Shown here piece by piece: positions 19,645 through 53,063 of a stretch of DNA of 64,000 nt. The notes below the pieces were generated by a model. The model was not told the origin of the DNA. It saw nothing but the letters and a program-made list of their open reading frames with translations, and made no database searches. This DNA comes from Tetragonia tetragonoides. Its lineage: Eukaryota > Streptophyta > Magnoliopsida > Caryophyllales > Aizoaceae. A program made the position numbers and the translations under genes. Numbering within the stretch: position 1 is the first letter of the stretch; each line of letters starts with the position of its first letter. Location: contig CM076147.1 in the NCBI GenBank assembly GCA_038025085.1, positions 11,776,501-11,840,500 on the forward strand, given 5' to 3'.

Positions 19645-19646
19645 AA

Positions 19647-23431: not shown

Positions 23432-23443
23432 TGGCTAGAGTTA

Positions 23444-25096
23444 TTGACGGAGTACGACATCGACATTCAGTATCACGATGGGAAAGCTAACGTGGTAGCT
23501 GACGCTTTGACTAGAAAAACTTGTCATACGTTGAACACTGCTTTAGTACTTCCAAGGGACATCATTCGTGACTTGCAGAGTCTAGATGTGGAGATGGTGT
23601 TGAATGGTGACGTTCAATGTACCTTAGCACATATGTCAGTTCGACCAACCTTGCTCGACGAGATCAAGGGTAAACAGAGTGTAGATGAGGATCTTCAGCG
23701 GATTCTACACCACAAGGACGAGGGTAGATACGAGGACTTTTCTATTGGTCAAGACGGTGTCTTGAGATTTCGTGATCGTGTCTGTGTGCCGAATGACCCG
23801 GACATCAAGAGTCAGATTCTGGGTGAAGCTCACAATACACCTTATTCTGTACATCCTGGTGGAGACAAGCTTTACAAAGACCTTCGCCAAATGTTCTGTT
23901 GGAAAGGTATGAAACAAGATGTAGCTGAGTTCCTGGCTAAGTGTCTGACGTGCCAGAAGGTTAAGATCGAACACAAGAGACCTGGCGGAATGATAAAATC
24001 GCTTGAAGTTCCTACGTGGAAATGGAATTCAATTTCAATGGACTTTGTCATGGGTTTACCATTGACATAGAAGAAGAACAACGCCATTTGGGTAGTTGTG
24101 AATCTTTTGACGAAAGTTGCGAGATTCATCCCAATGAATGACACATGGGAAATGGAGAAGCTAGCGGATGCTTACGTCAAGGAAGTCATGAGACTTCATG
24201 GTGTTTCAGAGGATATCGCTTCGGATAGAGACTCGTGATTTCTATCACATTTTTGGCAGAAATTGCAAGAAGCTTTTGGAAGCAAATTGAAGTTCAGTAC
24301 TGCTTTTCATCCTGCGACTGATGGTCAGACGGAAAGAACAATTCAGACTGTGGAGGATATGCTTCGAGCATGTGCTCTCGAGTATCAAGGCTCGTGGGAT
24401 ACACACATTCCATTGATCGAGTTTTCTTACAACAATAGCTATCATTCAAGCATTGATCAAGCTCCATATGCAGCATTGTATGGAAGGAAGTGTAGATCGC
24501 CAGTTTGTTGGAACGACATTAGTGAAACTGCAGTTTTGGGTCCAGAAATGATCCAGCAGACCGTCGAAGTGGTCAAAGTGATTCAAGCAAAGATGCGTAG
24601 TGCTCAAGATCGCCAGAAATCGTACGCAAATAGAGGTCGTAGACATGAAAAGTTTGAGGTAGGAAGCAAGGTACTTTTGCGAGTATCTCCTACCAGAGGT
24701 GTCATGAGTTTTGGCCGTAAGGGGAAGTTAAGTCCTCGTTATATTGGACCTTACGAGATTCTGGAAAGGATTGGTGAGGTTGCTTATCGATTAGCTTTAC
24801 CTGTGGAACTTGCAAAAGTCCACAGTGTGTTTCATGTCTCTCAGTTGAAGCGATACGTACATGATCCAACTCATGTCGTTCAACCTGAAATGATCGATCT
24901 CGATGAAAGTTTGACTTATGAAGAGCGTCCTATCAAGATAGTGGATCGCAAAGAGCGCTCAACTCGAACAAAGACTATTCCGATCGTGAAAGTCCTTTGG
25001 TCTCGACAAGGTCAAGAGGAAGCAACATGGGAAGCTGAATCAATGATGCGCGAGAAATATCCAGATCTCTTCCTAGAAGGTACTAGTCCCACTTGA
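23444..25096 (+). pseudogene. Chromovirus integrase with C-terminal chromodomain, two premature stops
   Basis: The frame 23444-24070 ends RNase H and begins integrase, with the HHCC zinc finger (HNTPYSVHPGG ... CLTCQK) and the first catalytic Asp in SISMDFVMGLPLT. TAG at 24068-24070 interrupts. The core continues (WVVVNLLTKVARFIP; SDRDS), TGA at 24236-24238 interrupts again where Arg is expected, and 24263-25096 gives the catalytic Glu region and C-terminal GPYEILERIGEVAYRLALP. It ends with a chromodomain-like segment VKVLWSRQGQEEATWEAES, which in chromoviruses directs integration to heterochromatin. This tail is the main reason for the lineage call. Confidence 0.88.
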
Positions 25097-25100
25097 GTTT

Positions 25101-25376
25101 TGGGACAAAACTCCTTTTAAGGAAGGTAGAATGTCACGCCTCGAAATTTCGTCTTTTTGCGTGTTTTGTTTATCGCTTTGCACGAATTGCATGTTCAAGC
25201 ATTGCATGGTGCATGCTAATCAACTTAGAATCACGATCATACATGCTCATCTTGCATATGTTAGTGTCCTAGACATTGTTTTATACTTTCGTATAGGTAA
25301 ACTCGTTTTGTTTTGGGAAGTGATTACTTCATGTCTCAAGTTTCGGGACGAAACTTCTTTTAAGGAGGGTAGAATG
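25101..25376 (+). repeat. Duplicated polypurine-tract / LTR-start segment
   Basis: Two copies of GGGAC-AAAACT-CTTTTAAGG-GGTAGAATGT lie 243 bp apart (25102-25134 and 25345-25376). The second leads into the real right LTR (TGTGATACC at 25375). The first leads into TGTCACGCCTCGAAATTTCG, which itself looks like a gypsy LTR start. The intervening 240 bp matches neither LTR. Confidence 0.75.
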
Positions 25377-25602
25377 TGATACCCCAATATTTTCTATAAT
25401 TATTATTTCGATTTATAATTGATTTATAAATAGTTCGGAAATTAAATCGTATTATAAATGGTTTATAAATAGTTTCGGAGATTAAATCGTATATTCATTT
25501 AAGGATTCGATTTATGCAATTAAAGCAATAATAATATTAATTATTATTATGGGACTTTCATAAATGGTATTTATTAATTTTGAGGAATTTAATTAAAATG
25601 TT
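25375..25602 (+). repeat. Right LTR of the nested chromovirus, first 230 bp only
   Basis: Matches the start of the left LTR almost base for base (TGTGATACCCCAATATTTTC, GGGACTTTCATAAATGG), then homology stops after TTAATTAAAATG. Confidence 0.85.
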
Positions 25603-26959
25603 ATAGGGGAATTCCAATTGGTGCCCTTTTACTATTGACTTGTCCAACTGGTGCCCCTAACACAGAAAGAAATCCGGTCCGTACCCCTTTATTTTTTAAA
25701 AGTCTATTCCGTGACCTTATTTTATGTTTTCCGTTACAGGTTTCCGTTAATTGGTGACGTGTCAATGTTGAAAGAATTTTGGGTTTTTAGGGTCCATTTT
25801 CGACTAAAATAAGCAGACCAAATTGCCCCTATCACTGTCAGGCAGCTTCATTAACCTTGCTGTAAACTTTCTCTCTCCTCCCTCTTTCTCCACCGCCACT
25901 ACCACATTCTCCTCCTCATCTCTTTCTCTCTCATCAATCCCATCTTTAAAATTTAATCGCAACATTGTTGCTTCTGAATTAATCTCCCTGAAACAACAAT
26001 TCTTCAGTCATTCTCTCTCATCATCTTTTGCAACCCAAACTTACATCACTTTCTCTGTTTTCTGTAACCCCTATAATGATCATTCCGATTCCTAATTTCA
26101 TATGGTTTATCACGAATCAAAGGCAACCACCTAGTTATGTCTTGACTCTTGATGTTACAAAGCAAATCATATATTCCTAATTTCACTCGTTTGTGATAGA
26201 TCACTTTAGACGAACATTGGATAGATTGATTTTAACAACCTGAGCTAGGAGTAATGGCGACAGAATGACCAAACTTCAGCTAATCGACAACCAATTTTGC
26301 TAATAAAACATAGTTTTGGTAACTTTGCAGATTACGGATACCTTCGATTTTTATGCATCAACTTTCTAATCAGCAAACATAAACTTATGAGAAATAGAGG
26401 CAAAATTATGAATTCAAACAGTAATTCACTAAAAGATTTTCAGCTGACAACCAGTTGAATATATCCTATACATTGATGTGATGGTGGTGGTTGTCCGTCA
26501 CTGAAGCCCAGTAAGATGATGAGGAAGACGATGATGATGACGATGACGTAATGATAAACCCACCAAACAAGCCACCACACACAACGCAGGTTGAAATCCT
26601 CTCGAAAAAGTCGCCTAAAAGCATAGCTCAAGGTTGAGGATTGAAAGAGGCAAATCTCATGCCGACGGAAACTTTGGTCGATGGAATCACAGTGAGTGGC
26701 ATTAAAGAAACATAAGCCCCCAAAAACACTACTGCTCAGCATCTTCATTCTTCAAATTGCATCTATTTTCCTGGGTTTGCATTATTTTGCTTCAATTTTC
26801 GAGTTCGTCACCTCTACTAGTACCCCTAAAGCTCTCAGTTCGAGAGGAGAGAGAAAGAGTGTAAATTTGAAGATGCACAATGGATTAAAAGTTTACAACA
26901 GTAATTTGAGGTGCTGAGGAGAGAGAAAAATGACAGCTTAAAAGTTTACATCAGTTACA
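25603..26959. other. Foreign 1.36 kb segment replacing most of the right LTR; possible captured gene 5' end
   Basis: Begins at GGGGAATTCCAATTGGTGCCC; the element-like start includes repeated 'TGGTGCCC' words. It is unlike the left LTR except for the last six bases (GTTACA) before the TATAC duplication. The plus frame 25823-26095 (90 codons) is Ser/Thr-rich, low in acidic residues and ends ITFSVFCNPYNDHSDS, resembling an organelle transit peptide, so it may be a captured exon. There is no matching inverted end, so the transposon type is not settled. A short repeat, AAAAGTTTACA, occurs twice near the right end (26887 and 26939). Confidence 0.45.
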
Positions 26960-26964
26960 TATAC

Positions 26965-28442
26965 CAACTCTATGAAAAAGAGAAACAGAAAGGGTCGAGT
27001 CGGACTCAGGAAGACCTTCGCAATATCATTGAATACCAAGAGGCTGAACGCCAAATCGAAGAGCAGAAATTGAAAGAGTTGAATCAAAGATATGAGAATG
27101 AACGAAAACGGGATCAGGAACTCCTCACGGGGTTCAGTCCACCTCAAATTAGCACAATCTTGCAACCGTTGATACTCCAAATTCCGAGCCCCACCACCAT
27201 GGGGAACGTTGGGGTATCTAATACCTTAGCAAACTTGGAGAGTGAAACACCAGCTGTAGGATTAGCTCCGTTCAGCGACGAGATCATGGCGGCTCCAATG
27301 CCATCCAAATTAAAACCAATGGAGGACAAGTATGAGGTCCCCCAGAACCCACAAGATCACATCATGGCTTACAGAGCGACCATGATGAACCAAACTCTAA
27401 GTGATGCGGCGTTGTGCAGAAATTTTCCAATGACTCTGAAGGGGCTTGCCATCCGATGGTATGCCTCACTTGCCCCAAAGAGTATCTACTCTTGGGCTCA
27501 GATGGAAAAAAGATTCAAGAATCACTTCGCGGCACACATCCAGCAGAAAAAGACCACGGAACACCTCTACAAACTAAAACACGACAAGAAAGAGGGCTTG
27601 AAAGATTATCTTGCTCGATTCAATGCAGAAACCCTCGAAACTGATGACTTGGACGAAAGGCTCGCCAGCGCGGCCTTTGTGTCAGGGTTAACCGAGGGGT
27701 CGCACTTCAAGTTCCAGATAAATTTGAAGCGAGAGGAAAAAGGATTCCAAACCCTGCCAGAGGTTAGACGATTCACCGTGTCATATGCCAACTCACAGGA
27801 ACAGTCGGGACGATATACTCCGGGCAATCGGAAGACAGACCCAAAACCCGAGGCTAAGTCGAGTAAAAATACTAAAAGCGACCAGCAGAAGCACTTGTTG
27901 TGTCCAGGGGGCCTCCTAAAAGAAGTGACTGGAGGAAGACTGACCCTTCAGATGATCAGTGGTCGTTCAGTGTTGACCAACAAACTATCTTCAACAAGAT
28001 GGATCGAAAACTTCTCGACATCCCGCCTCCCATTGTTAGGGATCTCACTGAGACAAACCCAAAGCTTCGATGCGCATACCATGACGATGTGGGGCATGCG
28101 ACCGAAGACTGTCAAATGCTGGTAAAAAACCTTGAGAAACTAGCTGAGGAAGGAAAGTTGAAGCAGTTCCTCAAAAAGAAAAATGTCTACAAAAAACCCA
28201 AGGTGACAACGGTTGTCGAAGACGAAGAGTCGGAAGAGGATGATATGACCAACGTCGTTAAAATGATCTATGGTGGCCTAGGTGGAGGAGGATCGACCAA
28301 AAAGCAACGACAGGATCATTATCGCAGTGCTGAACAAATAATGGTTGTGGGGGTTCCCCCCATAGGCAAGATCCCGCCTGTAACCTTCGACGAGGTGATT
28401 TCCGAGCATTGCATCATCCACATGACGATCCACTGGTCGTAA
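26965..28442 (+). pseudogene. Tat gag, main part, frameshifted
   Basis: Continues the split gag: a coiled-coil stretch (EYQEAERQIEEQKLKELNQR), then the retrotransposon gag domain (AYRATMMNQTLSDAALCRNF; FKNHFAAHIQQKKTTEHLYK). Homology leaves the first frame near 27895 and continues in 27900-28442, which carries CAYHDDVGHATEDCQ, the Cys/His motif at the gag C-terminus of Tat elements, then an acidic stretch and the approach to protease. Two shifts in total (about 27895 and about 28420). Confidence 0.8.
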
Positions 28443-29240
28443 CTCTCAAGATCGCAGGCTTACTCACCGAGCGAGTCCTCATTGATACAGGAAGTTCGGC
28501 CGAAATCATCACCTATACGTGCCTCCGACGATTGGGGTATAGTGAAGACAAGATTACCCCCGTCTCACTGCCCGTCTTTGGGTTTGGCGGGCACAAAGTC
28601 TACCCTATCGACACCATCATTCTCCCGGTACGAATAGGAGAAAAGGGGGGCTCGTCGAAGGCAGATCATCGAATTCTTGGTGGTCGATACGAAATTGGCC
28701 TACAACGCCATCCTTGGTCGACCCACTCTAGCAGCCATCAACGCGGTGATCCACATGTCCTGGTTAATTATGAAATTTGATCGGGGGAACGGCCTAATCG
28801 GGTAGGTGGTTAGCGAACAGAAGATCGCCCGAATATCGTATGTCGATTCTCTGGATAGAAAGAAGCTGTAAAACGAAGACGAAGACCTTCCCTTATTACC
28901 TACGAAGTCAATGGTGATATCGCAGCACATAGGGACAGCACTGACTGTTGCCCCTACCCCTGCAGAGATCGCAGCAGCAAAAAAGAAGAGTGTAAAGGAA
29001 GGCAAGAGGAAGATAGCTGGATGCATGCTCCTAGAAATGTATATTGCTGATCATATCGATACCAGGTTTGAGCCTGAAAATTGACCCGAACCATCGGGGG
29101 AAACCTCGGAGGTCAGGCTGAATAAGTCACAGCCAGAAAAAATCACATATATCGGGGCAGACCTAGTCGACCCTCGAAGAAGAGACATAACAGGGCTACT
29201 CCAATAGTATTCCGACATCTTTGCATTCTCCCCATCCGAT
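28443..29240 (+). pseudogene. Tat protease and protease-RT linker
   Basis: ERVLIDTGSSAEIITYTCLR holds the aspartic protease active-site DTG at about 28484-28492. LRRLGYSEDKI and VFGFGGHKVYP follow. The frame shifts at about 28660 into the segment with AYNAILGRPTLAAINAVIHM and then contains several stops (for example about 28801, about 28869 and about 29082). It would cut the polyprotein; here it is inactive as a continuous product. Confidence 0.75.
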
Positions 29241-30412
29241 ATGCCAGGCATAGATGGTGATCTAATCATCCATAGGCTAGGGGTACAGCCCAATTTTAAG
29301 CCTGCAAAGCAAAAGAAGAGGCAAATGGGTACGGAGAGAAGTGAAGCTGCAAAAGCCGAAGTTCAAAAGCTGCTGAAGGCCGGATTTATCAGAGAATGCC
29401 TTTACCCGGAGTGGCTAGCCAATGTGGTGCTAGTCAAAAAACACAATGGGACTTGGCGGATGTGCGTCGACTTTACAGATCTTAACAAGGCAGGCCCGAA
29501 GGACGGCTTCCCCCTCCCTCGAATTAACCAGTTGATTGACTCAACATCTGGGCATGAACTTCTCAGCTTTATGGATGCTTTTTCAGGGTACCACCAGGTA
29601 CGTCTAGCAAAAGAAGATCAAGAAAAAGCAGCCCTCATCACTAACGATGGAGTATTCTGTTACAATATGATGCCCTTCAGTTTGAAAAATGCGGGGGCAA
29701 TATATCAACGCCTGGTAAAAAAGGCTTTCTCTCCTCGGCTAGGGAGAAATGTCGAGGCTTATGTAGAGGACATGGTCGTCAAAAGCAAGAAAAGCGACAG
29801 TCACTTTTCGGACTTAAAAGAAACATTCGACACCCTGCGTCGCCACAATATGAAGCTCAACCCTAAAAAATGTATGTTCAGGGTCCCGGGGGGAAAATTG
29901 TTGGGCTTCATGATAAGCCAGCGAGGAATCGATGCCAATCCCGAGAAAATACAGGTTGTAATAGACATGCATCCACACAAATGCCTAAAAGACGTGCAGC
30001 GGTTAACTGGCTGTGTCGCGGCTTTCAGTCGCTTCATCTCACGATCGGCGAATCGATGTGCCTCATTCTTCAAGGCCATCAAAAACAGAGAAAAGTTTGT
30101 ATGGTCGACGGAGGCCCAGGCCGACTTCGAGAACTAAAAGCATATCTAGCTAAAGCATCACAGATGGTAAGCCCAAAAGTGAGAGAAATTTTTTTTATCT
30201 ACTTGGCAGTCTCAAAACGGGCAGTTTCAACGGCCTTGGTATGTGAGCGGGATAAGACTCAGCACCCAGTCTACTTCGTGAGCCACGTCCTTTTGGACGC
30301 GGAAACGTGATATCCTGATATCGAAAAGTTTGCTTTGGCTCTGATCATAAGCGCACGACGGCTTTGACCTTACTTCTGTTCCCATGAGATTACTGTACTC
30401 ACTGATCAACCC
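29241..30412 (+). pseudogene. Tat reverse transcriptase and first RNase H, catalytic residue changed
   Basis: The frame 29241-30137 covers most of RT: GFIRECLYPEWLANVVLVKK, WRMCVDFTDLNKAGPKDGFP and FMDAFSGYHQV are the usual Tat motifs. The catalytic loop reads AYVEDMVVKS: GAG at 29766-29768 replaces the first of two adjacent Asp codons (YVDD in the family). A frameshift at about 30130 and stops at about 30308 and about 30366 interrupt the connection and first RNase H domain (VCERDKTQHPVYFVSHVL). It would copy element RNA into DNA. Confidence 0.85.
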
Positions 30413-31387
30413 TTGAAGGCAGTTCTGCAGAGCCCAAAGCGAGCTGGAAGACTAAAGCCATGGGCCACCGAGCTGGGCGAGTTCTCCATAGAATATGAGC
30501 CCCGGAGAGACATAAAAGGGCAAGCATTGGCCGACTTCACAGTGGAAATGGCATCTATCAACGAACAACCAGTGCTGTGGTCGATGAAGTGGGAACTGGC
30601 AGTCGATGGTTCATCCTGCCGTAACGGGAACGGGACAGGTCTGGTACTCATAAACCTCGAAGGAGTTGTGTTCGAATACGCCATGCGATTCCAATTCACA
30701 GCATCTAACAACGAAGCAGAATATGAGGCCCTGCTAGCAGGCCTACAAATGGCTCGAATGGTAGGAGCCCATAGTGTGGCAGTAATCATGGATTCCCAGT
30801 TGGTAGTATCTCAAATCACAGGAGACTATGAGGCCAGGGAAGACTCCATGAAGGCGTACCTCCAAAAAGCGAAGGAAGAAGTTTCAAAATTCGAAGAGTT
30901 CTCCATCAAGGATGTGTTGAGGTCAGACAACCAACAGGCAGATGCCCTGGCCAAGTTGGCCAGCTCTGCTATCAACGGACTCCCACGATCAATTTTTAGG
31001 GAAGTCCTGCAAAAAAAAAGCATCACAAAGCCTCCTGAAGTAAACTTGCTCGATAGGTCGGAAACTTGGATGCATCCCATAATCGACTATCTCAAAGATG
31101 GGACTCTACCGGGGGATGAAAAGGAAAAGGCGAAAGTAAAGAAGCGAGCAAAATGGTTTATCCTGGTTGATGAAGTATTGTACAAGCCAGCTTTCAACCA
31201 ACCATTACTCAGATGTGTCACTCCCTCGGAGGGAGCCGATATCTTGGATGATCTGCACAGTGGAATAATGTGTGGGTCACACATTGCTGGAAGAGCCTTA
31301 GCCAGAAAATCTCTCAGAACCGGATACTTTTGGCCGACCATAAGATCCGATGTTGTGAACTTGGTAACCCGATGCAAGAATTGCTAG
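30413..31387 (+). pseudogene. Tat second (archaeal-type) RNase H and integrase zinc finger
   Basis: A 324-codon open frame. After the end of the first RNase H, the second domain shows the four acidic positions: LAVDGSS (D), ASNNEAEYEALLAG (E), VIMDSQLVVSQI (D) and LRSDNQQADALAKLA (D). This duplicated RNase H is diagnostic of Tat elements. The integrase zinc finger follows, to VTRCKNC, then TAG at 31385-31387 where CAG (Gln) is expected. Confidence 0.85.
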
Positions 31388-32305
31388 ATACACTCCACAG
31401 TACAACGACAACCAGCTATGAACTTATCCCCAATACTAGAACCACTCCCCTTTCACCTTTGGGGAATGGACATATTGGGTCCCTTTCCAGAGGCACCAAG
31501 ACAATTCAAGTTCTTAGTCGTAGCAATCGACTATTTTATAAAGTGGATCGAGGCTAAGGCCTTACGGCGTATTGAGGAACAAGACATCAGGAAGTTCATC
31601 TGGGAGAATGTAGTCACCCGCTTTGGAGTTCCCAAGGGGATTATATTCGATAACGGTCCTCAGTTTGATAATCCAAGATTGAAAACATACTTGTCGGATT
31701 TTGGCATAAAGGCCCGATTCATCGCTGTGGCTAGACCACAATCGAATGGTCAGGCTGAAGCAGCCAACAAAATCATCCTCAATGGTTTGAAACGCAAGCT
31801 CGAGGCAGCCAAAGGACTCTAGGAGGAAAGGTTGTATGAAGTTCTTTGGTTGATCAGAACCACCACAAAAGATGCCACAGGGGAAACTCCTTTCAGATTG
31901 GTTTATGGATCAGAAGCTGTCCTACCCATAGAGTTGGTTACTCCATCTCCCCGAGTAATTTCATACGACCCTGAAGAAAACGACCGAAAGTTGAGGTTCA
32001 ACCTCGACCTACTACCTGAAACGAGAGGAGACACCCTCCTACGAATGAAAATAGCCAAAAATCAGCTGATACGACAATTCAATAGGAGGGTGAAGGGGAA
32101 ACATATGGCTGCAGGCGACTTGGTACTCCGCAAAACGGAGAGTACAGTTAAACAGTCTGGACAAGGGAAGCTGACTGCTAACTGGGTAGGGCCCTATAAA
32201 ATCACGGGGGTCATTCGACCAGGCACATACCGGCTGGAAAACATGAGTGGAATCCCACTGCCTAGAGCTTGGAACCTCAACAACCTGAGGAAATTCCACA
32301 TCTAA
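31388..32305 (+). pseudogene. Tat integrase core and C-terminus, one internal stop
   Basis: The core frame (31418-31822) contains all three catalytic acids: GMDILGPF, FDNGPQFDNP and NGQAEAANK. TAG at 31820-31822 sits where Trp (TGG) is usual (KGL-stop-EERLYEV). The frame resumes at 31832-32305 with ETPFRLVYGSEAVLPIEL and the C-terminal GPYKITGVIRPGTYRLEN. It ends TAA at 32303. No chromodomain. It would insert the element DNA. Confidence 0.85.
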
Positions 32306-33276: not shown

Positions 33277-33894
33277 TCAAGGGGCAAATCCTAGGGCAGA
33301 CTGACCACCAGGGGCCTCAAGCTGTCGACCGCCCTCAGCAAGACGGTGACCATACTCCTGGAAAAAAGAATGTCGACCACTAGCAGTAATAAGGGCAGTC
33401 TTGTGAAGGACCGCATCCTTCTCAATAGCCTCTACTCGAGCAGTCTCATTAGCAATCTCCTTTTGGATGGCCGTCACCCTCGACTCAGCCATCTTCAGCT
33501 CGATGGCCAACCTCTTCAAGTTATGGTCGGCCACCGCCAGCTTCTCACAAGCCTTTGCAAAGCCAGACCGATGATGCTTCCGATCCTACAGAGCTTTGGT
33601 TGCTTGAGCCTCAAGGGCCTGAGGGTCGACAGGAGCGTCAGCAGGCAGAGGGGGGAGATAGCCTTCCCTCCTCCTAGCAAATCTGAGAGCGTCCAAAGAA
33701 ACGCAGTAATCACACCCACAATGCTCCTCGTGGGAACGGGAGTCAAAGGGTATATTGACCATTGTCGACCCACTGGGCCCAGCGGCAGGCTCGATCTTAG
33801 GGGTGACTGGGACCCCGCCCATCGTTATAGACAGATGAGAGGTAGATCTACCCCCAAGATAGAGCTTACGACACTTGGAAGGCGGAGAAGACAT
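33277..33894 (-). pseudogene. Antisense gene D of the Tat element: small coiled-coil protein, one stop
   Basis: Starts ATG at 33894 (MSSPPSKCRKLYLGG), 120 bp after its own TATA box. About 205 residues. The N-terminal half is basic to neutral with a short Cys/His run (HEEHCGCDYC); the C-terminal half is heptad-like (LKRLAIELKMAESRVTAIQK) and predicted coiled coil, ending LGFAP-stop at 33277. TAG at 33586-33588 (KAL-stop-DRKHH) interrupts an otherwise continuous frame. The leader shares TTTCTCTCTCTAGA with gene C, suggesting tandem duplication. Function unknown. Confidence 0.65.
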
Positions 33895-34664: not shown

Positions 34665-35239
34665 CTAAAGGGATAGAGGGGGAGAAGCGAGAGGTTGATC
34701 CTCCAGCTGGTTCCTCAGAATCCTCACTTTATCGAGGAGCTCCTCCCTCCGGTCCCGAAGGCCGTTCAACTCCTCGACCCCTCCGGTAATCCGAGCCACC
34801 AGCTCGGTCCTGGCGTCAAGGAGGGCATTGTCCCTCTGCTCCCAGCAGTGGATTTTAGCTTGGGTGGCCGTCTCCCTCTCACAAGCTCCACCGATCTCCC
34901 GATGAAGCTCCTGAAGATGATTGGTCAACCGTTCCGATAAAGGAACAAGTCGAGCAGGCGGTTCAGGCCCGTTGGCGGCAGGAGGGGGAGCCAGAACCTC
35001 AACGGCAGGAAGTGGCCGACCATCGGACCCTCGATGCTTTCTCGAGATCTCCTAATAGCAGTGATCAGATCCCGAGCCTCCAATCCCAAGCTCGACCCAG
35101 GAGAGGATCGGGGAGTGGCTGGGGTGTAAGACTCCGAAGAAGTCGAGACACGACTCTTCACAGCACCCTCAACCTTCCTAGCCTGTCTACTAGATTCTCC
35201 ACGATGAATGGTTGTAGCTTTCCTCTTGGAACCAGCCAT
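34665..35239 (-). pseudogene. Antisense gene C of the Tat element: small basic coiled-coil protein, one frameshift
   Basis: Starts ATG at 35239 (MAGSKRKATTIHRGESSRQA), 112 bp after a TATA box. The basic N-terminus and Ser/Pro-rich middle (SESYTPATPRSSPGSS) run to about 35030. There a one-step frameshift moves the continuation (PPPAANGPEPPARLVPLSER) into the frame of 34928-34665, a coiled coil (NGLRDRREELLDKVRILRNQ) ending at TGA 34665. About 190 residues. The basic KRK cluster suggests nuclear targeting. Layout matches genes B and D. Confidence 0.65.
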
Positions 35240-35628: not shown

Positions 35629-36402
35629 TTAGGGGTCTAGAGCTTCACGCTTGTGCTTGATTTCCTGCTCCAATGCTTGTTGTCTCTGAACCAGAGAACG
35701 ATGGAGTTTCCTCCCCTCTTTAAGGGCCAGGGTTTTATCCTTGACTACCCGCTTTGCAGCACAAAGGTCTTTCATGAGTTGATCGACCCTCCAAGCTACA
35801 TGTGTCTGCTCCTCCAATATTGATCTCCTAGTCTCCTCAGCACGCTGAATCTCTCGCTCCAAATCCTGCCTACGGGTTTGCTGAGCCTGACGACCCTGCT
35901 CACCCACTGTCTCATGCCGACTTTCGCCTCGAAGGGGGTCTGTACCTTCAGGATCCCTCACTCTAGGAGAAGGAATATCTGGACCAGGGTCGACTTTAGG
36001 AGGAACGGGGGAAGGAGAGTCAGGTCTACTTCCACCATCACCAGGCAGCCTTACGGCCAGAGGCTCGCCTTCGAGACATTCTAGGACCCCCTGGGATTGA
36101 AGTTGCTGAAACACCATCCAAATATGGGTATAGAGACGCTCGGACAGAGAAGTATCCTCGAAGAGGCGAACGAAATCAGGAACTGTTAGCCTAGCTAAAT
36201 TAGCCTCACTGAACTTATCAGGGACTTTCAAGGGCTCGTCATGAGTCGACTTCGAAGCACCTTCCTCACACGCTTTGTTTGATTGATTATTCCTTACAAC
36301 GCGCCTTCCCGACCGAAGGCGATACGCTCGGGATACCGACTCAGTATCCATGGAGGACTCATCACTAGAGCCTGAAGAAATGAAAATAGCTGAGGAAGAC
36401 AT
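35629..36402 (-). CDS. Antisense gene B of the Tat element: intact 257-residue coiled-coil protein
   Basis: A complete open frame from ATG 36402 to TAG 35629. The N-terminus is acidic and Ser-rich (MSSSAIFISSGSSDESSMD) followed by RLRSGRRVVRN. A middle helical part (FSEANLARLTVPDFVRLFED) precedes a Pro-rich linker and a C-terminal coiled coil (QDLEREIQRAEETRRSILEE; LVQRQQALEQEIKHKREALD). Its TATA box lies only 44 bp upstream, so the leader would be about 10-20 nt. It is the only unbroken gene in the Tat element. The N-terminus resembles that of gene A (MSMSSPIDVSSGSDSS). No known domain recognised. Confidence 0.65.
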   Translation of the reverse strand: MSSSAIFISSGSSDESSMDTESVSRAYRLRSGRRVVRNNQSNKACEEGASKSTHDEPLKVPDKFSEANLARLTVPDFVRLFEDTSLSERLYTHIWMVFQQLQSQGVLECLEGEPLAVRLPGDGGSRPDSPSPVPPKVDPGPDIPSPRVRDPEGTDPLRGESRHETVGEQGRQAQQTRRQDLEREIQRAEETRRSILEEQTHVAWRVDQLMKDLCAAKRVVKDKTLALKEGRKLHRSLVQRQQALEQEIKHKREALDP

Positions 36403-36611: not shown

Positions 36612-39600
36612 TCAACCCTCAAAAGTGGAGGGGGCGCAAACAGTTTTCAACAAGGGTGACCAACCACCCTGAAAAGGAACAAGTACAAATCCCCCTAACT
36701 CAGGGGTGTAGGCCTCAGACGGCCCTGATCTTCCCGCTTCCTCCTCTGTCCGCCTCTCAGCAACAATGGCCTCCATATCCTTCAGATCCGAGGCAATAGA
36801 GTCCTCGATTCTACTGGCCTCAGCTAGATGATCGGGGTCGGTAGAAGTTCAGAGGTTCCAAATTCTAGCCATGGAGCTGATCACAGAAGCTCCAACATCT
36901 CCTTCTCCATACACCTGGAGCAGGGCTTCATTCCAGAATCGAGTCTGACGATACACAGCCACCCTCCAGTCAGCCTGGGCCCGAGCCTCCTTGGTCTTCC
37001 AATCTTCGGCTTCAGCCTTGGCAGCTTTGAGGAGACCTGTGACTTGAGCATTGGCCTTGTTAGCCTCCTCCAGTCTCCCTCTCAACTCCTCGAGGGAATG
37101 CTCTCTCTCAGTAAGAAAAGACTTCCCCTCCTTAAGGTCGACCTTCACCTTCTCCAACTCGGCACGAAGACCCGACAACTCAGCTCGAGCCTCCTCCCGG
37201 GCTTTAGCCTCGGTGGCCTGCCACTCTTGACACTGGATGACCAACCGACGCCTTTGAGCCTCGTTGACCCTAATAACCGCACTCAGGAGAATGTCATCCT
37301 GAAAAACACAAACAAATTAGTAACATCCGAAAAAACTTGGCTGAAAACAGATGAAGAAAACGGCTGTGACAGTACCTTCAGTCGACTTGTGGCCATAGGC
37401 CTCAGAAGGGCCGTCATGACATCTGTCGACCCCACCTTTGAAGTTACCAGCTCCATGTCCTTCTCATGGAATAAGTTAGGGAAGACGGCCTCGGCAATCT
37501 TGGATTGTTCATCCAGAGGAGCCCCCAGAACGGCCGGCATCTTGAGGGCATGACCTTCAGGACTCTGCCTGCTAATCATGTACGCCTGGCCCGTGAACTC
37601 ATTGTTGTCCCTTCGGGTAGATCGGATAGCCTGCATTTCATCAATGCTCCTCAGACTCGGTGGGGAAAATTCTCCTGCTACGACCGAGATGGAAAGGCCA
37701 ACACTCGTCTCTTGAATTCCGACAGGAGGGGTAACTATCCCCCAGGCAACGGCAGCGGGCTAACTCGCTTGGATCAACCCGACACCAGGGGTATCAACCG
37801 TCTTCTTCTTCGAAGGAGACACCCTCTCCTGTGACATCGGGACCTCGTCACCCGACCTCTTTCTAGGGTGAGGGTCGACGTCAGATAAAGCTTTAGTCGA
37901 AGAACCTCCCTTCTTCAACCTTGCCTTCGTCCCGAAGACCGTTGCTTTCTTCTTCTTGGGAAGCTTCATAAAACAAGAAAGTCATCAGCATCAATTGTGG
38001 GACTATCGACTACAACAGATGGGGGGAGAAGATCTGTTACCGATGCAAGCTTCTTCTGAGCCTCAGCCGTATCCTTGAAAGCTCTAAGAAAAGCCTTGGA
38101 GGTCGTGCCGGCCACCATCTAATCTCCCTCCGGCATCTCTAACAGCTCAACAACGGCGGCCTCTGCAAAACATAAAGAAAGGAAGAGAGTTAGGCAAAAC
38201 CCTCGACCAATAGAAAAGATTTAGAGCAAGGAAATAATGAAGACAAGGGCATTATACCATGGGTCATGGTCGACCGAAAACCAATGAAGACCAGGAAAGC
38301 TTCATTGGAGAACCAGGACTTATCGATCTTCCAATGGGAAGGAGCTTTGACCTTCTCACATACACCCTCATCTCGGTTAGGGTGACGGAAGTACTCTACC
38401 GTCCGACGCTCGGCCAAGGACAAAGAGTCCAGGGGCTCGCGGTCCGGACCAAACAACTCACTACCTATCTCCTCTAGATAGTTTTCCCTCCAAGGAGGGC
38501 ACACTCCATCCCATCCCTGCTCATTGTGCAGAAACAAGAAACTCTCTTTCCATAGGGTGACATTACTCAAGGACCGACACATGGAAAAACCCTTTTTAGG
38601 GCTCAAATACCAAGTCCTGAGCTTGGTCGACTGCACCCTGAGATACAGATGACGAAGAACAGCATCGGTCACCTCTAGCTTATGGACATGGACCACTGCT
38701 GCTAGGCCGATCAACGACCTCCAGGAGTTCGCCTGGAGCTGAAAATAGTGAACTCCCAAACGACCCACTATCTTTCTAATCAAACGAGGGAGGGGAAACT
38801 TCAAACCCTCGTCAAAAACTTTTGTGGAAAAAGGGATGCAGTTGGGCGGAGCAGGGTAGCACTCCTCCGACTTGCTGGGACAGATAAAACACATCCTCGG
38901 GGGCAGGTGATATCGCACCAAAAGCGATAAGATATCCTCAGCCGACCTGCCAGCCTAAACCGACCGTTTCAAATGAATAGGGACAGCATCGGGTTTTTTC
39001 CCTTGCTTCGATCCCCCATCCACGGGATCCTCCTCCACATGTTCCAGGCCTGGCTCTATCTCGACGCCTTCCTGATCAGCCTGTTCCACCTCCTCCAAAG
39101 GCACGGAAGTCGGTGAACTCTTCCTCCTACTGGACCTCGACTTCCTCTTCTTCTTCTTCTTCTTCTTTTTCCCCTCCTTCTTCTCCTCTGAAGAAGGGGG
39201 AGGAAGATCTTCATCCTCAACTGGAGAAAAATCCTCGACCTTGATCTCACCGCTCTCCAAAGACCCTTGAGAGGCCTCAGCCTCTTCATGTTCCGACCTA
39301 ACAGGCTCGGGCATGCCACCAAGCAAGCCAGAAGTACTAGCTACATGATCGATAGACCTGGTCAACCGATCAGATGAAGAGTCGGGTAAAACACCCGAAG
39401 CACTTGCTTGACCTGCCATTTGCCCCGAAGAACTTCTCTCTCTATACTCCCTACAAAATAAGCAAATGAAGAAGGTCAAAATGGGCAACATGACTTTGGC
39501 AAACATACAAAGAAAACTACTCGAAGGATTAAAAACATCATTATATGAGGGCAGACAAGCCGATCTCCTATCAGCTCAAAGTCACTCATGGGAGAGGAGC

Positions 39601-40103
39601 AGTCAAGACCCCCTCTTCCTGAACGGCAAGTTTGTTTAACACGAGCCCTGGACATTTCTTCTTCGTCTCCCTGCAGGGGAGAGACAGAACATAAGGGTTT
39701 GACCCCGTCTAAAACACGGATCTCTCCCAACGCTACACACATTTGAAAGACATTCAACACATCTTGTTTGAAGCCTCGTGGAATATCGGGGTCCGACAGA
39801 ACCCTGGCATACCAAGACTCCTCCCGAAGCCGGAACGGAGTGACCCAATCTTTAAGAAGCAATTCGTCCGGGCTCGACCACTCAAAACCCGGACGAAACT
39901 CAGAAAAAGGAAACCCTGGCGGAATCCGGGGGAACTGGGTCATTCGAAGGATGAGGGCAAGACTCCTCATACGACGGGTCAGGCCCCTAACTAGACGAAC
40001 CTCGACCGGAACTTTCGGGGAAAGATCCCCAGGTCCCTGGTCGAGATGCCTCAGGCGAGCTATCAGACCCCGACGATACATCAATGGGTGAAGACATCGA
40101 CAT
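36612..40103 (-). pseudogene. Antisense gene A of the Tat element: multi-exon gene with gypsy-type transposase-like domain
   Basis: Minus strand exons: E1 40103 to about 39557; E2 39450-38258; E3 38162-38041; E4 37963-37376; E5 37298-36612. The three introns E2/E3, E3/E4 and E4/E5 have GT..AG ends with T-rich 3' sites (for example TTTCAG|GATGAC). Splicing them leaves one frame of 862 codons plus stop, broken only by nonsense codons at 38955, 38119, 37760 and 36849. E1 has a frameshift and its donor is uncertain. Contents: a Ser/acid-rich start, KKKKKKKKRKSRSSRRK (nuclear signal-like), a region around LPRLIRKIVGRLGVHYFQLQ and ANSWRSLIGLAAVVH like the 'putative gypsy-type transposase' family, and a coiled coil (LKEGKSFLTEREHSLEELRG). 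Function unknown. Confidence 0.7.
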
Positions 40104-40310
40104 GAAAATAAAACAAAAAAATGCAAGCAAGAAAAGTACCAAGAGAAAAACGTTGTACCTTGTGGAAAAGTGGAAGGCGAATCTACAACGGTAGATCGAA
40201 CAGCCAGTAACGAATCAACAGAAGACTCGTGAGAAATTTTGGAGACCCACTTTCTCTCTCTAAAAACACAAATGGCAGAAATGAATAGAGGAAAGAGAGG
40301 TTGGCTCTGA

Positions 40311-40320
40311 CTATTTATAG
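40311..40320 (-). promoter_or_regulatory. TATA box of antisense gene A
   Basis: Minus strand CTATAAATAG, about 208 bp before the ATG at 40103; the leader may contain an intron (donor-like AAG|GTACAA at about 40160). Confidence 0.55.
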
Positions 40321-40536: not shown

Positions 40537-41449
40537 TGATATAACCAAAATATCGAGGGTCGAGCTATCGACCCCCGTCCTAGCTACGCCAGAAATATCC
40601 TAACCTTCAGCAGAGCCAGGATCATCGACAACTCCAAAAAGGCATTTCTTCACTCGAGGGGCAACCCCTGATCGAAGGTTCCCCCGCCCGCTGCTCAACA
40701 TCACCAACAGACCCGGGAAGATCTACCTCAACTACCCTCATACCGACCAAAGGACTACAATTATGCTCTGGCTCGACTACGAGGGTTGGCTCAGCCATGA
40801 ATCGACCCTTAGGCTTTCTGTACGCTCAACCCTGACGCCAGCACATGTACTATGCGAATATCCCTACAGAGATTCGGATGATTGCCTTGGCGCCCATGCT
40901 CTCTAAGCCCCAAGGACAGAAGTGACGCCATCAACTGTACGAACCCCTACGTGGAATCATCCCAACGGATCGTTCCACAACTCACGTGACCACCCCCACT
41001 AAGCCGACTTAGAGAGGGATGTACGTACAGGGCTACATGTCCACTGTTCATTCGACGATGCTAGCCGACTTTTGCCCTATAAATACCTGCGCGGAAATCA
41101 AGGCAAAGGTAAGGTCATTATATTGAGAGAGCATTCACGCTGTCTGACATTAAGCTCTGACATTCTGTCTTTCAGCTCTGATTCCCATAGTCTTATGCAC
41201 AATCAAATCCTCACCTCATTACTCCATATATACCTTCCTGTACAAAAGTACCTCTCGTACAGATCTCCATTTACTAACTTACGCATCGGAGGGGTCTTCT
41301 CGGGTCGACCCCCCGAGCTAGTTCACCTTTACTTGTCTTGTGCAGGTAGCAGTGGAAAGGGCCAAGGAAATAGACAAACAGCCCCCGCTCGCACATCTCG
41401 ATCCCAACATCTTCCCAGTGTTCGACCCCCCTTCAAATCGGGCGAAACA
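40537..41449 (+). repeat. 3' LTR of the Tat element (TATA intact)
   Basis: 913 bp, TGATATAACC ... GGCGAAACA, followed by the CTACC duplication. It retains TATAAATA at 41078-41085. Its last 307 bp (from 41143) are repeated twice more downstream as part of a tandem array. Confidence 0.9.
41078..41085 (+). promoter_or_regulatory. TATA box of the Tat 3' LTR
   Basis: TATAAATA in CCCTATAAATACCTGCG. Absent from the 5' LTR because of the 51 bp deletion there. From here transcription would run outwards into the Helitron and tandem array. Confidence 0.6.
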
Positions 41450-44405
41450 CTACCCACAAAAGAGAATCAGTAACTAGAGGTGCGACGTGGCTAAAATAAA
41501 GGTGACCAGTTTTTTGAAGTAAACGTTACTTTATGAGAGAGGTGGCTGAGAAATAAGCGGAGCTAAACTCTCCAGATTCATCCTTCCTTCCCTTACTCAA
41601 ACTCAAAAAACAAAGTAACTGAGTGGTTGAGAAAATTAATTTTGTTTTTCTCCACCTCATTTACCACCTAATTGTAGCAACAAAGCCAAGTATGTTTAAT
41701 TTCTTCTCTCTTTTTTGGCAATTTCTTTATGTTTAATTTGTGGTTTTTGAAGTACTCTATTTTGCATGTTGGACTCTTTAATCTAAATTTCTATTACTCT
41801 GCTCTGCCAAGAAGGAAAATAAGGGGATGCATTTGTATCAAGGCAATGCATTTTAGATAGAGCATGATGATTAGTGTTCTTATAGTTTTTGTTTATTGGG
41901 GTTTTCAGTATTGAGATGGATGAATTAGGAGATAAAAAGGAGGTATTCAAAGGTTTTCATTATTGGAGAATTTCAAGTATTGCAACTTTTTAAATTAAAA
42001 TATGCTTCTTCTTCTTCTTTTTTCCTTCGCATGGGTTTCTATTTGTATGTTCTTCATATTTATATGGAGAATTCTCATAATATTCTTCATTTTGTTTGAT
42101 TATATGGATTCTGATTAACATATTAATTGTTGTTTGATGGGTAGATATAGGGAGCAAATTGGCAAATTTGAGACAGATCAATGCTGGAAGGGTTCGATAA
42201 ATTCAAATATACGTTTTAATTGTATTTTGTCTGACATTGAGCTCTGACATTCTGTCTTTCAGCTCTGATTCCCATAGTCTTATGCACAATCAAATCCTCA
42301 CCTCATTACTCCATATATACCTTCCTGTACAAAAGTACCTCTCGTACAGATCTCCATTTACTAACTTACGCATCAGAGGGGTCTTCTCAGGTCGACCCCC
42401 CGAGGTAGTTCACCTTTACTTGTCTTGTGCAGGTAGCAGTGGAAAGGGCCAAGGAAATAGACAAACAGCCCCCGCTCGCACATCTCGATCCCAACATCTT
42501 CCCAGTGTTCGACCCCTCTTCAAATCGGGCGAAACACTACCCACAAAAGAGAATCAGTAACTAGAGGTGCGACGTGGCTAAAATAAAGGTGACCAGTTTT
42601 TTGAAGTAAACGTTATTTTATGAGAGAGGTGGCTGAGAAATAAGCGGAGCTAAACTCTCCAGATTCATCCTTCCTTCCCTTACTCAAACTCAAAAAACAA
42701 AGTAACTGAGTGGTTTAGAAAATTAATTTTGTTTTTCTCCACCTCATTTACCACCTAATTGTAGCCACAAAGCCAAATATGTTTAATTTCTTCTCTCTTT
42801 TTTGGCAATTTCTTTATGTTTAATTTGTGATTTTTGAAGTACTCTATTTTGCATGTTGGACTCTTTAATCTAAATTTCTATTACTCTGCTTTGCCAAGAA
42901 GGAAAATAAGGGGATGCATTTGTATCAAGGCAATGCATTTTAGATAGAGCATGATGATTAGTGTTCTTATAGTTTTTGTTTATTGGGGTTTTCAGTATTG
43001 AGATGGATGAATTAGGAGATAAAAAGGAGGTATTCAAAGGTTTTCATTATTGGAGAATTTCAAGTATTGCAACTTTTTAAATTAAAATATGCTTCTTCTT
43101 CTTCTTTTTTCCTTCGCATGGGTTTCTATTTGTAAGTTCTTCATATTTATATGGAGAATTCTCATAATATTCTTCATTTTGTTTGATTATATGGATTCTG
43201 ATTAATATATTGATTGTTGTTTGATGGGTAGATATAGGGAGCAAATTGGCAAATTTGAGACAGATCAGTGCTGGAAGGGTTCGCTAAATTCAAATATACG
43301 TTTTAATTGTATTTTGTCTGACATTGAGCTCTGACATTCTGTCTTTCAGCTCTGATTCCCATAGTCTTATGCACAATTAAATCCTCACCTCATTACTCCA
43401 TATATACCTTCCTGTACAAAAGTACCTCTCGTACAGATCTCCATTTACTAACTTACGCATCGGAGGGGTCTTCTCGGGTCGACCCCCCCGAGCTAGTTCA
43501 CCTTTACTTGTCTTGTGCAGGTAGCAGTGGAAAGGGCCAAGGAAATAGACAAACAGCCCCCGCTCGCACATCTCGGTCCCAACATCTTCCCAGTGTTCGA
43601 CCCTCCTTCAAATCGGGCGAAACACTACCCACAAAAGAGAATCAGTAACTAGAGGTGCGACGTGGCTAAAATAAAGGTGACCAGTTTTTTGAAGTAAACG
43701 TTACTTTATGAGAGAGGTGGCTGAGAAATAAGCGGAGCAAAACTCTCCAGATTCATCCTTCCTTCCCTTACTCAAACTCAAAAAACAAAGTAACTGAGTG
43801 GTTGAGAAAATTAATTTTGTTTTTCTCCACCTCATTTACCACCTAATTGTAGCAACGAAGCCAAGTATGTTTAATTTCTTCTCTCTTTTTTGGCAATTTC
43901 TTTATGTTTAATTTGTGGTTTTTGAAGTACTCTATTTTGCATGTTGGACTCTTTAATCTAAATTTCTATTACTCTGCTCTGACAAGAAGGAAAATAAGGG
44001 GATGTATTTGTATCAAGGCAATGCATTTTAGATAGAGCATGATGATTAGTGTTCTTATAGTTTTTGTTTATTGGGGTTTTCAGTATTGAGATGGATGAAT
44101 TAGGAGATAAAAAGGAGGTATTCAAAGGTTTTCATTATTGGAGAATTTCAAGTATTGCAACTTTTTAAATTAAAATATGCTTCTTCTTCTTCTTTTTTCC
44201 TCCGCATGGGTTTCTATTTGTATGTTCTTCATATTTATATTGAGAATTCTCATAATATTCTTCATTTTGTTTGATTATATGAATTCTGATTTATATATTG
44301 ATTGTTGTTTGATGGGTAGATATAGGGAGCAAATTGGCAAATTTGAGACAAATCAATGCTGGAAGGGTTCGATAAATTCAAATATACGTTTTAATTGTAT
44401 TTTGT
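41143..44405 (+). repeat. Tandem triplication, 1087 bp unit of LTR end plus Helitron flank
   Basis: Units start at TGTCTGACATT at 41141, 42228 and 43315, an exact 1087 bp period. Each unit is about 307 bp of the 3' end of the Tat LTR, one copy of the CTACC site, and about 780 bp of Helitron. The third unit reads through into unique Helitron sequence (TTTTGTTGCAGTG). The joins share TGT, so the duplication probably arose by unequal exchange at microhomology. Units differ at few positions. Small open frames in it are repeated artefacts. Confidence 0.92.
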
Positions 44406-49746: not shown

Positions 49747-50230
49747 CTAAGGGAAACAATTCAGCTCAACATTCATCAAGTGTCGCAGCTTTTGGCATTT
49801 GTAGCTCTGTGCCTTTGCATGTAGTTGGTTGATAATTTTCCTGCATGCTCCATGGACAGTAGTATTTTCTTGCCTGAAAGTCTTGGCATTCCTGGCCTCC
49901 CATATCGCATGACATACAGCAGCTAAAATATCTTTCACCACTTTCCTTCTACCCACAGCAGCATGACTTGCCCACAGCAGAACCTGATCCCAAGACACAG
50001 TGGGGATAGGAACTCCAACCCAGTTCATCATAGTCTTCAACAGCTCCCTAGAGAAGGAGCATTCAAAGAACAAGTGACCGTGTGATTCAGCAGCATTATC
50101 ACATATAATACACCCCAGATTATTTATATTTCCAATGCCTCATCTTGCTAATCTGTCCACAGTAGGTAGTCTTTGTTTGCAGACCAGCCAGAAGCAAAAA
50201 GCTTGTTTTGGTAGGCTTAAAGGAGCCCAG
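49747..50230 (-). pseudogene. LINE C-terminal zinc-binding (zf-RVT) region
   Basis: The frame 50073-49747 starts MFFECSFSRELLKTMMNWVG and contains AVCHAIWEARNAKTFRQENT, the usual end of plant LINE ORF2. Just upstream (50074-50230) is the Cys/His part, broken by a stop. Associated with RNA binding in the element RNP. Confidence 0.75.
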
Positions 50231-50246
50231 CACAGCTTTGTCCAAG

Positions 50247-51654
50247 CTACCAAGGTATATTTGGGGCCAAAGCCCTGTAAGCAGCTCCTATAGTGTACCT
50301 GCAGCTTGACTGAACCACTGTCTTCACCATATTCTTGTCATCAAAGATTTTTTTGATCATCCACGAAGCTTGCATTGGACATTCCATGTCCCAAAATCCT
50401 TGCCTTTTAATATAATAAACAGCAATCCATTGTATCCATAATCTCTCCTTCATCTTATGGATATCCCAAACTAATTTACCAATGGATGCAACATTCCATA
50501 GATGTAACTGAAAAATGCCAAGTCCTTTAGATTTTGGAGCACATACTTGGTCCCATGCTACTAGAGCTCTCTTAGAAGGAGCACAAGATCCAGACCAAAG
50601 GAAGGAACGACACAATTTCTCAATGTGATTCAAAACAGTTTGAGGCAACATGAAAACCTGCGACCAATAAGACTTTAAAGGGAATACAACACTCTTTAGC
50701 AACTGTAATAAACCAGCATATGAGAGCATCCTACTGGTCCATACATTCATTCTGCCAGTTACCTTGTCTATCACAGGTTGACATTGAGCAATTGAGAGCC
50801 TCTTAGAGGATAGGGGCACTCCCAAGTACTTCACAGGTAATTCACCCTTGACAAACAAAGTATTCTGCATGATAAGTTGCTGCTGCTCATCTGTCAACCT
50901 TCCAAAGTAAATTTCAGAATGGAGCCCTGAAGTTGCTGAAAAATCATTAAGGCACTGCAGTAGACAACCTATAGACTGTATATCACCTCTTGAGAAGAGT
51001 TGCAAAAATACTGTGACACATCTTGAACTTGGAGCATTTAGGATGGTATTTGAACTGAGGTTGTCTCTTCAGTTGGTCAAGACACCTAGACAGGTACTCC
51101 ATACCCAAGACAAAAAGGTAGGGAGATAAGGGGTCTCTCTGTCTAAGACCTTTTCTTGCAGGGAAAGGTGACAGTAGAGAACCATTGTAACAAACAGAGT
51201 AGCTCACTGTTGATACACATGTCATGATCATATGTACAAATCTAGCAGGGAAATATAGAGCATAAAGCATTTGTTCAATAAATGACCATTCCACTAAATC
51301 ATATGCCTTCCTTAAATCAATGTTTAGGAGACATCTAGGTGAGATATGCTTCCTCCCATAGTGCTTTACTAGCTCATGTGCAAGTATAACATTATCTGTA
51401 ATTCTTCTCCCTTTCACAAAAGCAGATCGTTCTTCATGTATAACAGAATTAAGAACTGTACAGAATCTATTTGCAAGCACTTTGGATGCAATTTTGTAAA
51501 GCACATTACAACACGAAATGGGTCTAAATTCACTCACTTTGGAAGGATTTTTTACCTTGGGCACCAGGGTGATAGTTGTACAGTTTAGGCTATTGAGCAT
51601 TTTACCATTTTGCAGCATATCAAGCACAGCCTCACAAACATCCTCCTTGACCAC
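50247..51654 (-). pseudogene. LINE reverse transcriptase, catalytic FADD deleted
   Basis: The frame 51654-50983 gives fingers and palm (SEFRPISCCNVLYKIASKVL; RSAFVKGRRITDNVILAHEL; LNIDLRKAYDLVEWSFIEQM). It runs to SIFATLLKR and stops. The frame 51005-50247 begins at MQLFSRGD, the text normally just after FADDL. The join shows that about 13 bp holding the two catalytic Asp codons are gone, which also shifts the frame. The rest has VKYLGVPLSSKRLSIAQCQP and the thumb region. The enzyme is dead. Confidence 0.82.
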
Positions 51655-51667
51655 AGACCATGCTTTT

Positions 51668-52306
51668 TTAAAAAAACCCTACAGAAAAGCCATCAGGCCC
51701 AGGTGACTTATCTTCATCCATCCCCCACAGAGCTGCTTTAACCTCCTCAACTGCATAATCCTTTGCCAAATCTAGCTGCTGACTGAAACTCAATACAGTC
51801 CCCTGCTCCACAATCTCAGAATTTATAACAGGGGTGTTACTAGCAGTAGAGCCCATCAAACTCTTGTAAAAATCCACAAATTCCCCTTGTATGGCATCAT
51901 GATTCTCTATCTTACACCCTTGGGAGTCATAGATGTTAGTAATTTTATTGCTTGCTCTTCTAGCTTTAACTGAAGCATGAAAGAATTTCGTGTTTCCATC
52001 ACCACATTGCAACTAGTTAATTCCAGATTTCTGCCTTAAAGAAGCTTCTTTTACCTTACTGAATCTGTCAAGTTTTTCCCTAACTTGTATTTCATTTTCA
52101 ATAATTTGTGAGTTGAACAAGTCAGACTTCAGCTCCTCCTGAATATCAGCTAATTCATTTGCAGCCTCATGGAGCTTCTTATCCAGGCCCTTGAATTGTC
52201 GTGCAAACAATTTTAAAGCAGCTTTAACCCTCTTCAGTTTCTGGATGACCTGAAACATCGGTACTCCTCTCCCCTCAAAGCACCAATTCTCCTCCACTAA
52301 TTTCAA
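51668..52306 (-). pseudogene. LINE ORF2 segment between endonuclease and RT
   Basis: The frame 52306-52013 is a coiled-coil linker (RVKAALKLFARQFKGLDKKL), and 52012-51668 has GDGNTKFFHASVKARRASNK and EDKSPGPDGFSVGFF, the conserved text before RT. Short indels and stops separate the frames. Confidence 0.8.
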
Positions 52307-52917: not shown

Positions 52918-53063
52918 GTTATTTTACAATTTTGCTATGCTAGAAATCTTTATTTTAGTCTCAAGTAAACCTGCTAAATCAATTTTATGCTGCTGCAGAA
53001 AATACCTAAGACCCCTCTTCTTAGAGGGTTTATTGAGGCCCCTCATGTTCATGAAGAGGCTCT

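Follow-up and report, generated by a model that had tools for sequence, protein, structure and literature searches.

A putative spliced antisense gene with conserved introns in a Tat-lineage LTR retrotransposon of Tetragonia tetragonoides

The stretch of DNA analysed here (the window, 64,000 nucleotides) contains an LTR retrotransposon of the Tat lineage, and on the strand opposite its gag-pol lies gene A, with its TATA box at 40319, an ATG at 40103 and a stop codon at 36612. Gene A is very probably a true protein-coding gene of the element family, lying antisense, equipped with its own TATA box, composed of five exons and four spliceosomal introns, and spliced by the host. At the sequence level, the original prediction of a spliced antisense gene inside a Tat element is supported by the splice sites, the reading frame and the dN/dS of the relatives. 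The full-length spliced gene model makes the long-open question of accessory-protein function testable, and the family offers a natural case of introns passing through retrotransposition over deep divergence.

The host element and its antisense genes

Self-comparison of the window and alignment of the LTRs revealed that one LTR retrotransposon spans 15688-41449, with a 5-bp target-site duplication, CTACC, directly before the 5' LTR (15683-15687) and directly after the 3' LTR (41450-41454). A TGGCGCC... sequence, which we take to be primer-binding-site-like, adjoins the inner edge of the 5' LTR. The K2P divergence between the 5' and 3' LTRs is 0.062. The parts of the element other than gene A are as follows:

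15688-16553, plus strand: 5' LTR, beginning TGATAT..., about 866 bp (LTR alignment with flanks, repeat map)
26905-32305, plus strand: decayed gag-pol with gag, protease, RT, RNase H, archaeal-type RNase H (RVT_3) and integrase (Pfam)
33277-33894, minus strand: gene D, one nonsense codon in the window copy; TATA at 34021; dN/dS 0.25 and 0.29
34665-35239, minus strand: gene C, frame broken in the window copy; TATA at 35358; dN/dS 0.14-0.28
35629-36402, minus strand: gene B, 257 codons, open, no intron needed; TATA at 36454; dN/dS 0.30 and 0.27
40537-41449, plus strand: 3' LTR, with terminal CA, about 913 bp (LTR alignment with flanks)

The gag-pol region carries at least 13 disablements, and its Pfam matches for protease and RNase H were below the curated cut-offs. 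RT_RNaseH_2 was located at 29867-30310 (below cut-off), RVT_3 and then Integrase_H2C2 at 30368-31387, and rve at 31388-31822 (Pfam). The archaeal-type RNase H sits between RNase H and integrase, which is a feature of the Tat lineage, and a layout with this domain before integrase is given for the Ogre and Retand clades in PMC6317226. The domain order bears out the earlier placement in the Tat lineage, and the antisense ORFs between pol and the 3' LTR (genes A-D) represent a Retand feature. Judged by domain order, the window element is an LTR retrotransposon of the Tat lineage, probably of the Retand type, and the window copy is a dead, decaying member of its family.

Approximately 51 nt including a TATA box are present in the 3' LTR (at 41078) and missing from the 5' LTR (at 16227), so the sense promoter of the window copy may be gone. 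The Tat element is embedded in repeat sequence of another element, and 8011-15664 and 58138-63627 form an inverted pair of other gypsy-type sequence, approximately 91-95% alike, with the Tat element inside such repeats. Nested in the Tat element, at about 17208-25605, is another one whose integrase bears a chromodomain and whose ends carry short direct repeats, approximately 3 kb separating its left repeat from its gag, and a unit of approximately 1,087 bp (3' LTR end plus flank) occurs three times in tandem at 41141-44405 with approximately 98% identity. By appearance only, minus-strand ORFs at 49747-53918 resemble a non-LTR (LINE-type) retrotransposon and ORF pieces at 3638-5332 resemble a host enzyme gene.

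Between pol and the 3' LTR, a distance of 8.2 kb, the minus strand bears four TATAAAT motifs, each before an ORF. Gene B gave 149 matches in the genome. Of the 60 best gene A matches, 47 had a gene B match downstream on the same strand at no more than 12 kb, 39 of them at 2.36-2.67 kb; no other A-B arrangement was found within 12 kb when these 60 best matches were compared with 148 of the 149 gene B matches. In two diverged copies, A is followed by B, C, D and then the integrase end, in the same order as in the window. One of these copies lacks the TATAAAT before B, and the other has all three (B, C and D). The dN/dS of B, C and D was 0.14-0.30, a range based on these two diverged copies only. 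Moreover, the B-C and C-D promoter stretches match in register, suggesting duplication, and BLASTP yielded no cross match between proteins A and C.

The predicted anatomy of gene A, in the direction of transcription, is as follows:

40311-40319, minus strand: TATA box, TATAAATAG from 40319; TATAAA in 49 of the 57 copies covering the site
39537-40103, minus strand: exon 1 (E1); ATG in 50 of 59 copies; dN/dS 0.24; codon model negative
39451-39536, minus strand: first intron (E1-E2); GT and AG in 47 of 58 copies; 88-92 nt in 56 of 58
38258-39450, minus strand: exon 2 (E2), with a lysine-rich run at about 39180-39140 and a TRP28-like segment; codon model; dN/dS 0.19
38643-38825, minus strand: Transposase_28-like segment (PF04195) within E2; E 0.14, 12.8 bits, profile 4-65 of 69; below cut-off
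38163-38257, minus strand: second intron (the first of three originally predicted); GT..AG, 95 nt; both ends in 54 of 59 copies
38041-38162, minus strand: exon 3 (E3); codon model; dN/dS 0.28
37964-38040, minus strand: third intron (the second originally predicted); GT..AG, 77 nt; both ends in 47 of 57 copies
37376-37963, minus strand: exon 4 (E4); codon model; dN/dS 0.27
37299-37375, minus strand: fourth intron (the third originally predicted); GT..AG, 77 nt; both ends in 52 of 58 copies
36612-37298, minus strand: exon 5 (E5), with a coiled-coil-like part; codon model; dN/dS 0.21 (37298-36860)

The original prediction of an antisense gene preceded by a TATA box agreed with the window sequence, in which the motif begins at 40319 on the minus strand. 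The three introns predicted between E2 and E5 all proved to be GT..AG stretches, of 95, 77 and 77 nt, and their removal joins 39449 to 36612 into a frame of 2,589 nt, that is, the expected 863 codons including the end stop, with exactly the four internal nonsense codons that had been counted. The count of five exons also held, and relatives show an additional intron between E1 and E2. The predicted gene has five exons and four introns, as this further conserved intron joins E1 to E2. The E1-E2 donor of the window copy is unlike that of its relatives, yet a GT in phase is available at 39536. In addition, E1 shows a private 1-nt length difference from the relatives in the window, where its open frame extends over 284 codons, a length reached by none of 1,000 shuffles.

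Introns in the window copy and in its relatives

The earlier view that three frame-keeping splices are unlikely by chance was upheld by a free search in which up to three GT..AG introns were allowed: the window sequence gave 3 stops, whereas 60 dinucleotide shuffles averaged 19.5 and never fell below 14. For a codon model, gag-pol and pieces of genes B, C and D of the same element served as training data; E2, E3, E4 and E5 scored positive in the predicted spliced frame and in no other, and E1 scored slightly negative in its open frame. The second and fourth introns were negative in all frames, and among exon windows 3 of 437 and 2 of 449, respectively, had scores as low. No exon window of equal length was as rich in T as either of these two introns. 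For the third intron, 69 of 449 exon windows scored as low and 1.9% of exon windows equalled its T content. The introns are T-rich, and branch-like motifs (CTAAC, CTGAT and CTAAT) occur 19-28 nt upstream of the acceptors, which together with the GT..AG ends are features of U2-type introns. An ORF on the sense strand over E5 (36828-37553) was also considered as a gene and rejected, its codon-model score being near zero.

Compared with a model of one frameshift, the intron model gained 17.7, 3.6 and 15.6 nats for the second, third and fourth introns, respectively, and the best of 563 control GT..AG stretches within exons gained 7.7 nats. The third intron is thus weak in the window copy alone, its 3.6 nats lying under the best exon control. 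Read without introns, E2-E5 contains 7 disablements in 2.84 kb, near the 2.4 per kb of gag-pol, and 4 under the intron model; for gene A, neutral decay to the extent seen between the LTRs would predict 2.8 stops, and 4 were observed. As the disablements of the window copy fit indels as well as introns, only the relatives resolve the question.

A search of the own assembly (752.8 Mb, 27 contigs) with the E2 ORF returned at least 150 matches. The alignment comprised the self locus, the 19 matches scoring next highest and 40 chosen manually for divergence, coverage and partly for few stops, so that counts of open frames are biased upward. The 59 other copies show 61-94% amino-acid identity in the E2 domain, and splice ends were counted in copies with 60-140 nt at the place of the intron. 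As anticipated, the relatives keep the splice sites: GT and AG occurred together in 54/59, 47/57 and 52/58 copies for the second, third and fourth introns, respectively. The lengths of all four introns among the copies span all residues modulo 3, and 56 of 57 copies have a third intron of 76-89 nt. The most diverged class comprises 31 copies with less than 80% nucleotide identity in the E2 domain; in it the interiors of the second, third and fourth introns were only 62, 59 and 54% identical to the window, while both splice ends were kept in 28/31, 25/30 and 27/31 copies; in the 15 closest copies, both ends were kept in 14, 10 (third intron) and 13. Intron positions are conserved while lengths and interiors drift, as is characteristic of spliceosomal introns. 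No precise intron loss was found among the 59 copies, which fits the earlier proposal that antisense introns survive reverse transcription; two copies carry deletions that removed the third intron together with adjoining exon sequence.

The E1-E2 intron behaves likewise in the relatives, with GT in 54, AG in 51 and both in 47 of 58 copies, a GTATGT donor in 50/58, a TTGTAG or TTGCAG acceptor in 48/58 and a T content of 0.49. In the diverged class both of its ends were retained in 24/30 copies, and its interior was 63% identical compared with 82% for the upstream exon. Furthermore, the last 60 codons of E1 in the joining phase contained 10 stops among 3,480 codons (58 copies), compared with 232 and 226 in the other phases. 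With the intron removed, 8 of 58 copies are open up to the ATG column, a count subject to the upward bias of the set. A single exon comprising E1 and E2, as read through in 5 of 58 copies, was considered and rejected because the conserved intron lies between them; its length is exactly 90 nt in 39 of 58 copies, and with this length so frequent some copies read through it by chance. Among the E2-ORF relatives, three, on contigs C12, C6 and C9, were listed with open frames of 1,917, 2,083 and 1,976 codons, far exceeding E2, and for those on C6 and C9 stops were also listed inside the match.

Selection on the spliced frame and affinities of the protein

For dN/dS analysis, 60 sequences including the window gave 1,770 pairs, 1,707 of them with dS below 2. 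The median dN/dS of the spliced frame was 0.20-0.21 at dS 0.4-2 (1,473 pairs), consistent with the expectation of values below 1 across E2-E5; it was 0.28 at dS 0.25-0.4 (74 pairs) and 0.65-0.73 at dS below 0.25 (160 pairs), where dead copies drift. In two shifted frames, used as a control, E2 gave 1.16 and 1.15 (1,605 and 1,614 pairs, dS 0.1-1). Per exon, the medians at dS 0.3-1 were 0.24 (part of E1), 0.19, 0.28, 0.27 and 0.21. The relatives keep the frame as well as the splice sites, as had been anticipated. The predicted spliced frame of gene A is under purifying selection, and no age in years is claimed because dS above 1 is near saturation. Most copies are nevertheless broken, with a median of 18.5 stops in the spliced E2-E5 frame and 3 of 56 stop-free (a count biased upward by the choice of copies); exon gaps that are not multiples of three make up 26/30 in E1, 42/98 in E2, 42/61 in E4 and 14/20 in E5. 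Relative to dS, the divergence of the three introns between E2 and E5 amounted to about one half where dS exceeded 0.4 and to between one third and four fifths at lower dS. Intron divergence is thus lower than synonymous divergence at every depth, a pattern that is unexplained and could reflect alignment bias, dS bias or real constraint.

The order of segments proposed for the protein, namely a lysine-rich segment, a transposase-like domain and a coiled coil, was recovered in part: the lysine-rich run was seen, the likeness to Transposase_28 was weak (E 0.14), and the coiled coil corresponded to weak matches to coiled-coil families. For a 90-residue piece of E2, Transposase_28 (PF04195) was the only match among 24,736 Pfam models, with the same E of 0.14 below the cut-off, and a 232-residue piece gave no Pfam match. 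Three of 26 domain sequences matched PF04195 (best E 0.034), and z-alpha matched equally many. In alignment A1, G50, P54 and N76 are invariant and fit G21, P25 and N47 of TRP28 without gaps; the published conserved residues of TRP28 are G21, P25, N47, L34, P46 and F55 (PMC11963269), of which L34, P46 and F55 are replaced mostly by V, A and L in alignment A1. The E2 segment is probably a distant homologue of TRP28, as the spacing of G50/P54/N76 equals that published for G21/P25/N47. No relative emerged when protein collections were searched with the spliced protein, with the E2 ORF or with the alignment of 26 domain sequences. Neither IMG/VR, queried with the E2 domain and RT, nor GTDB contigs, queried with RT, gave a match, and PDB sequence searches returned one chance-level match and otherwise none. 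No homologue of gene A outside the source genome was found in the protein searches or in IMG/VR with the E2 domain.

Proposed explanation, alternatives and known antisense systems

Under the preferred explanation, transcription of gene A by RNA polymerase II would begin at 40.3 kb and run toward pol, and the introns would be taken out by the spliceosome of the host. New element copies would come from the sense RNA, in which the introns read CT..AC and stay unspliced, so that they would persist through every round. The predicted protein comprises a lysine-rich part, a TRP28-like, probably DNA-binding part and a coiled coil, and it may act in the nucleus on element DNA or chromatin, possibly as an accessory regulator. 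It seems that a retroelement can keep a spliced gene on its antisense strand, as dozens of copies in the same genome keep both the introns and the protein.

Alternatively, there could be no introns at all: indels would have disrupted what was once one long-standing antisense ORF, and the resulting shifts of frame would mimic splice junctions. The disablement rate without introns, close to that of gag-pol, and the weak third intron of the window copy would fit such an ORF, whereas ends kept at four places in most of the 59 copies around interiors of 54-63% identity, the absence of coding signal in any frame of the second and fourth introns, and exon dN/dS of approximately 0.2 in the spliced frame make it extremely improbable. 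It might also be the antisense RNA that matters rather than the protein, pairing with genomic RNA and acting in small-RNA silencing or regulation, with the frame as a relic. Double-stranded RNA roles have been proposed for such transcripts (PMC7264820) and most copies are broken, but amino-acid purifying selection acts in all five exons and, as judged from two copies only, on B, C and D, rendering this reading unlikely; such selection implies that a protein function is needed, with which an additional RNA role is compatible.

As to origin, backward capture of an intron-bearing host gene, subsequently kept by the element, is possible although doubtful: spliceosomal introns and own TATA promoters resemble nuclear genes and antisense capture would preserve introns, whereas similarity to TRP28 outside mobile elements is absent according to the text of PMC11963269. 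The cluster is common to very diverged copies, so any capture would be old. Capture is a matter of origin and is compatible with the preferred reading of gene A as a spliced protein-coding gene of the family. By analogy with the HUSH system of mammals, which surveys intronless foreign RNA (PMC8770142), it may tentatively be proposed that Retand elements permanently shelter a complete set of intron-bearing genes on their antisense strand, the introns being kept because they serve the element, with a spliced messenger being taken for that of a host gene and so evading HUSH-like surveillance. The introns may help the element or may only be tolerated by it.

Antisense TRP28 ORFs between pol and the 3' LTR are already known in Retand elements (Vicient 2025, PMC11963269), and gene A shares with them the antisense orientation, the position between pol and the 3' LTR and a TRP28-like segment. 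Those ORFs were predicted by ORF Finder, whereas the window element has four conserved introns and four antisense genes, and its distance from pol to the 3' LTR of 8.2 kb compares with the 2,933-6,566 bp stated there; the word "intron" is absent from the main text of that paper. No printed account of introns in antisense accessory genes of Retand or Grande was found in the literature covered here, namely PMC11963269, PMC7264820 and the titles and opening lines of abstracts on the subject. Grande gene23 (Gomez-Orte 2013) is described in PMC7264820 as an antisense accessory gene with its own promoter and a nuclear protein, similar to gene A in orientation and, as predicted for A, in having its own promoter. 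Plant LTR retrotransposons are generally without introns, with Ogre and EVADE as named exceptions (PMC12786077), and the intron of Ogre, a Tat-clade element, has been shown to be spliced (PMC6317226). In contrast to the sense intron of the Ogre type, the introns of gene A lie opposite the gag-pol strand. Beyond plants, HBZ of HTLV-1 is an antisense gene with a spliced mRNA in a retroelement (PMC6237760), although this retrovirus of people and its protein are unrelated to the element and gene described here. Similarly, an antisense homing endonuclease gene of a group I intron carries a spliceosomal intron that is removed in vivo (PMC9548176), which differs from gene A in the kind of element and in the presence of a single 47-nt intron.

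Two large surveys of extra ORFs relied on ORF finders (getorf in PMC6317226 and ORF Finder in PMC11963269), with which a gene interrupted by antisense introns would be overlooked or recorded as short pieces. Table 1 of PMC11963269 includes five clusters whose TRP28 lies only in an ORF of less than 600 nt.
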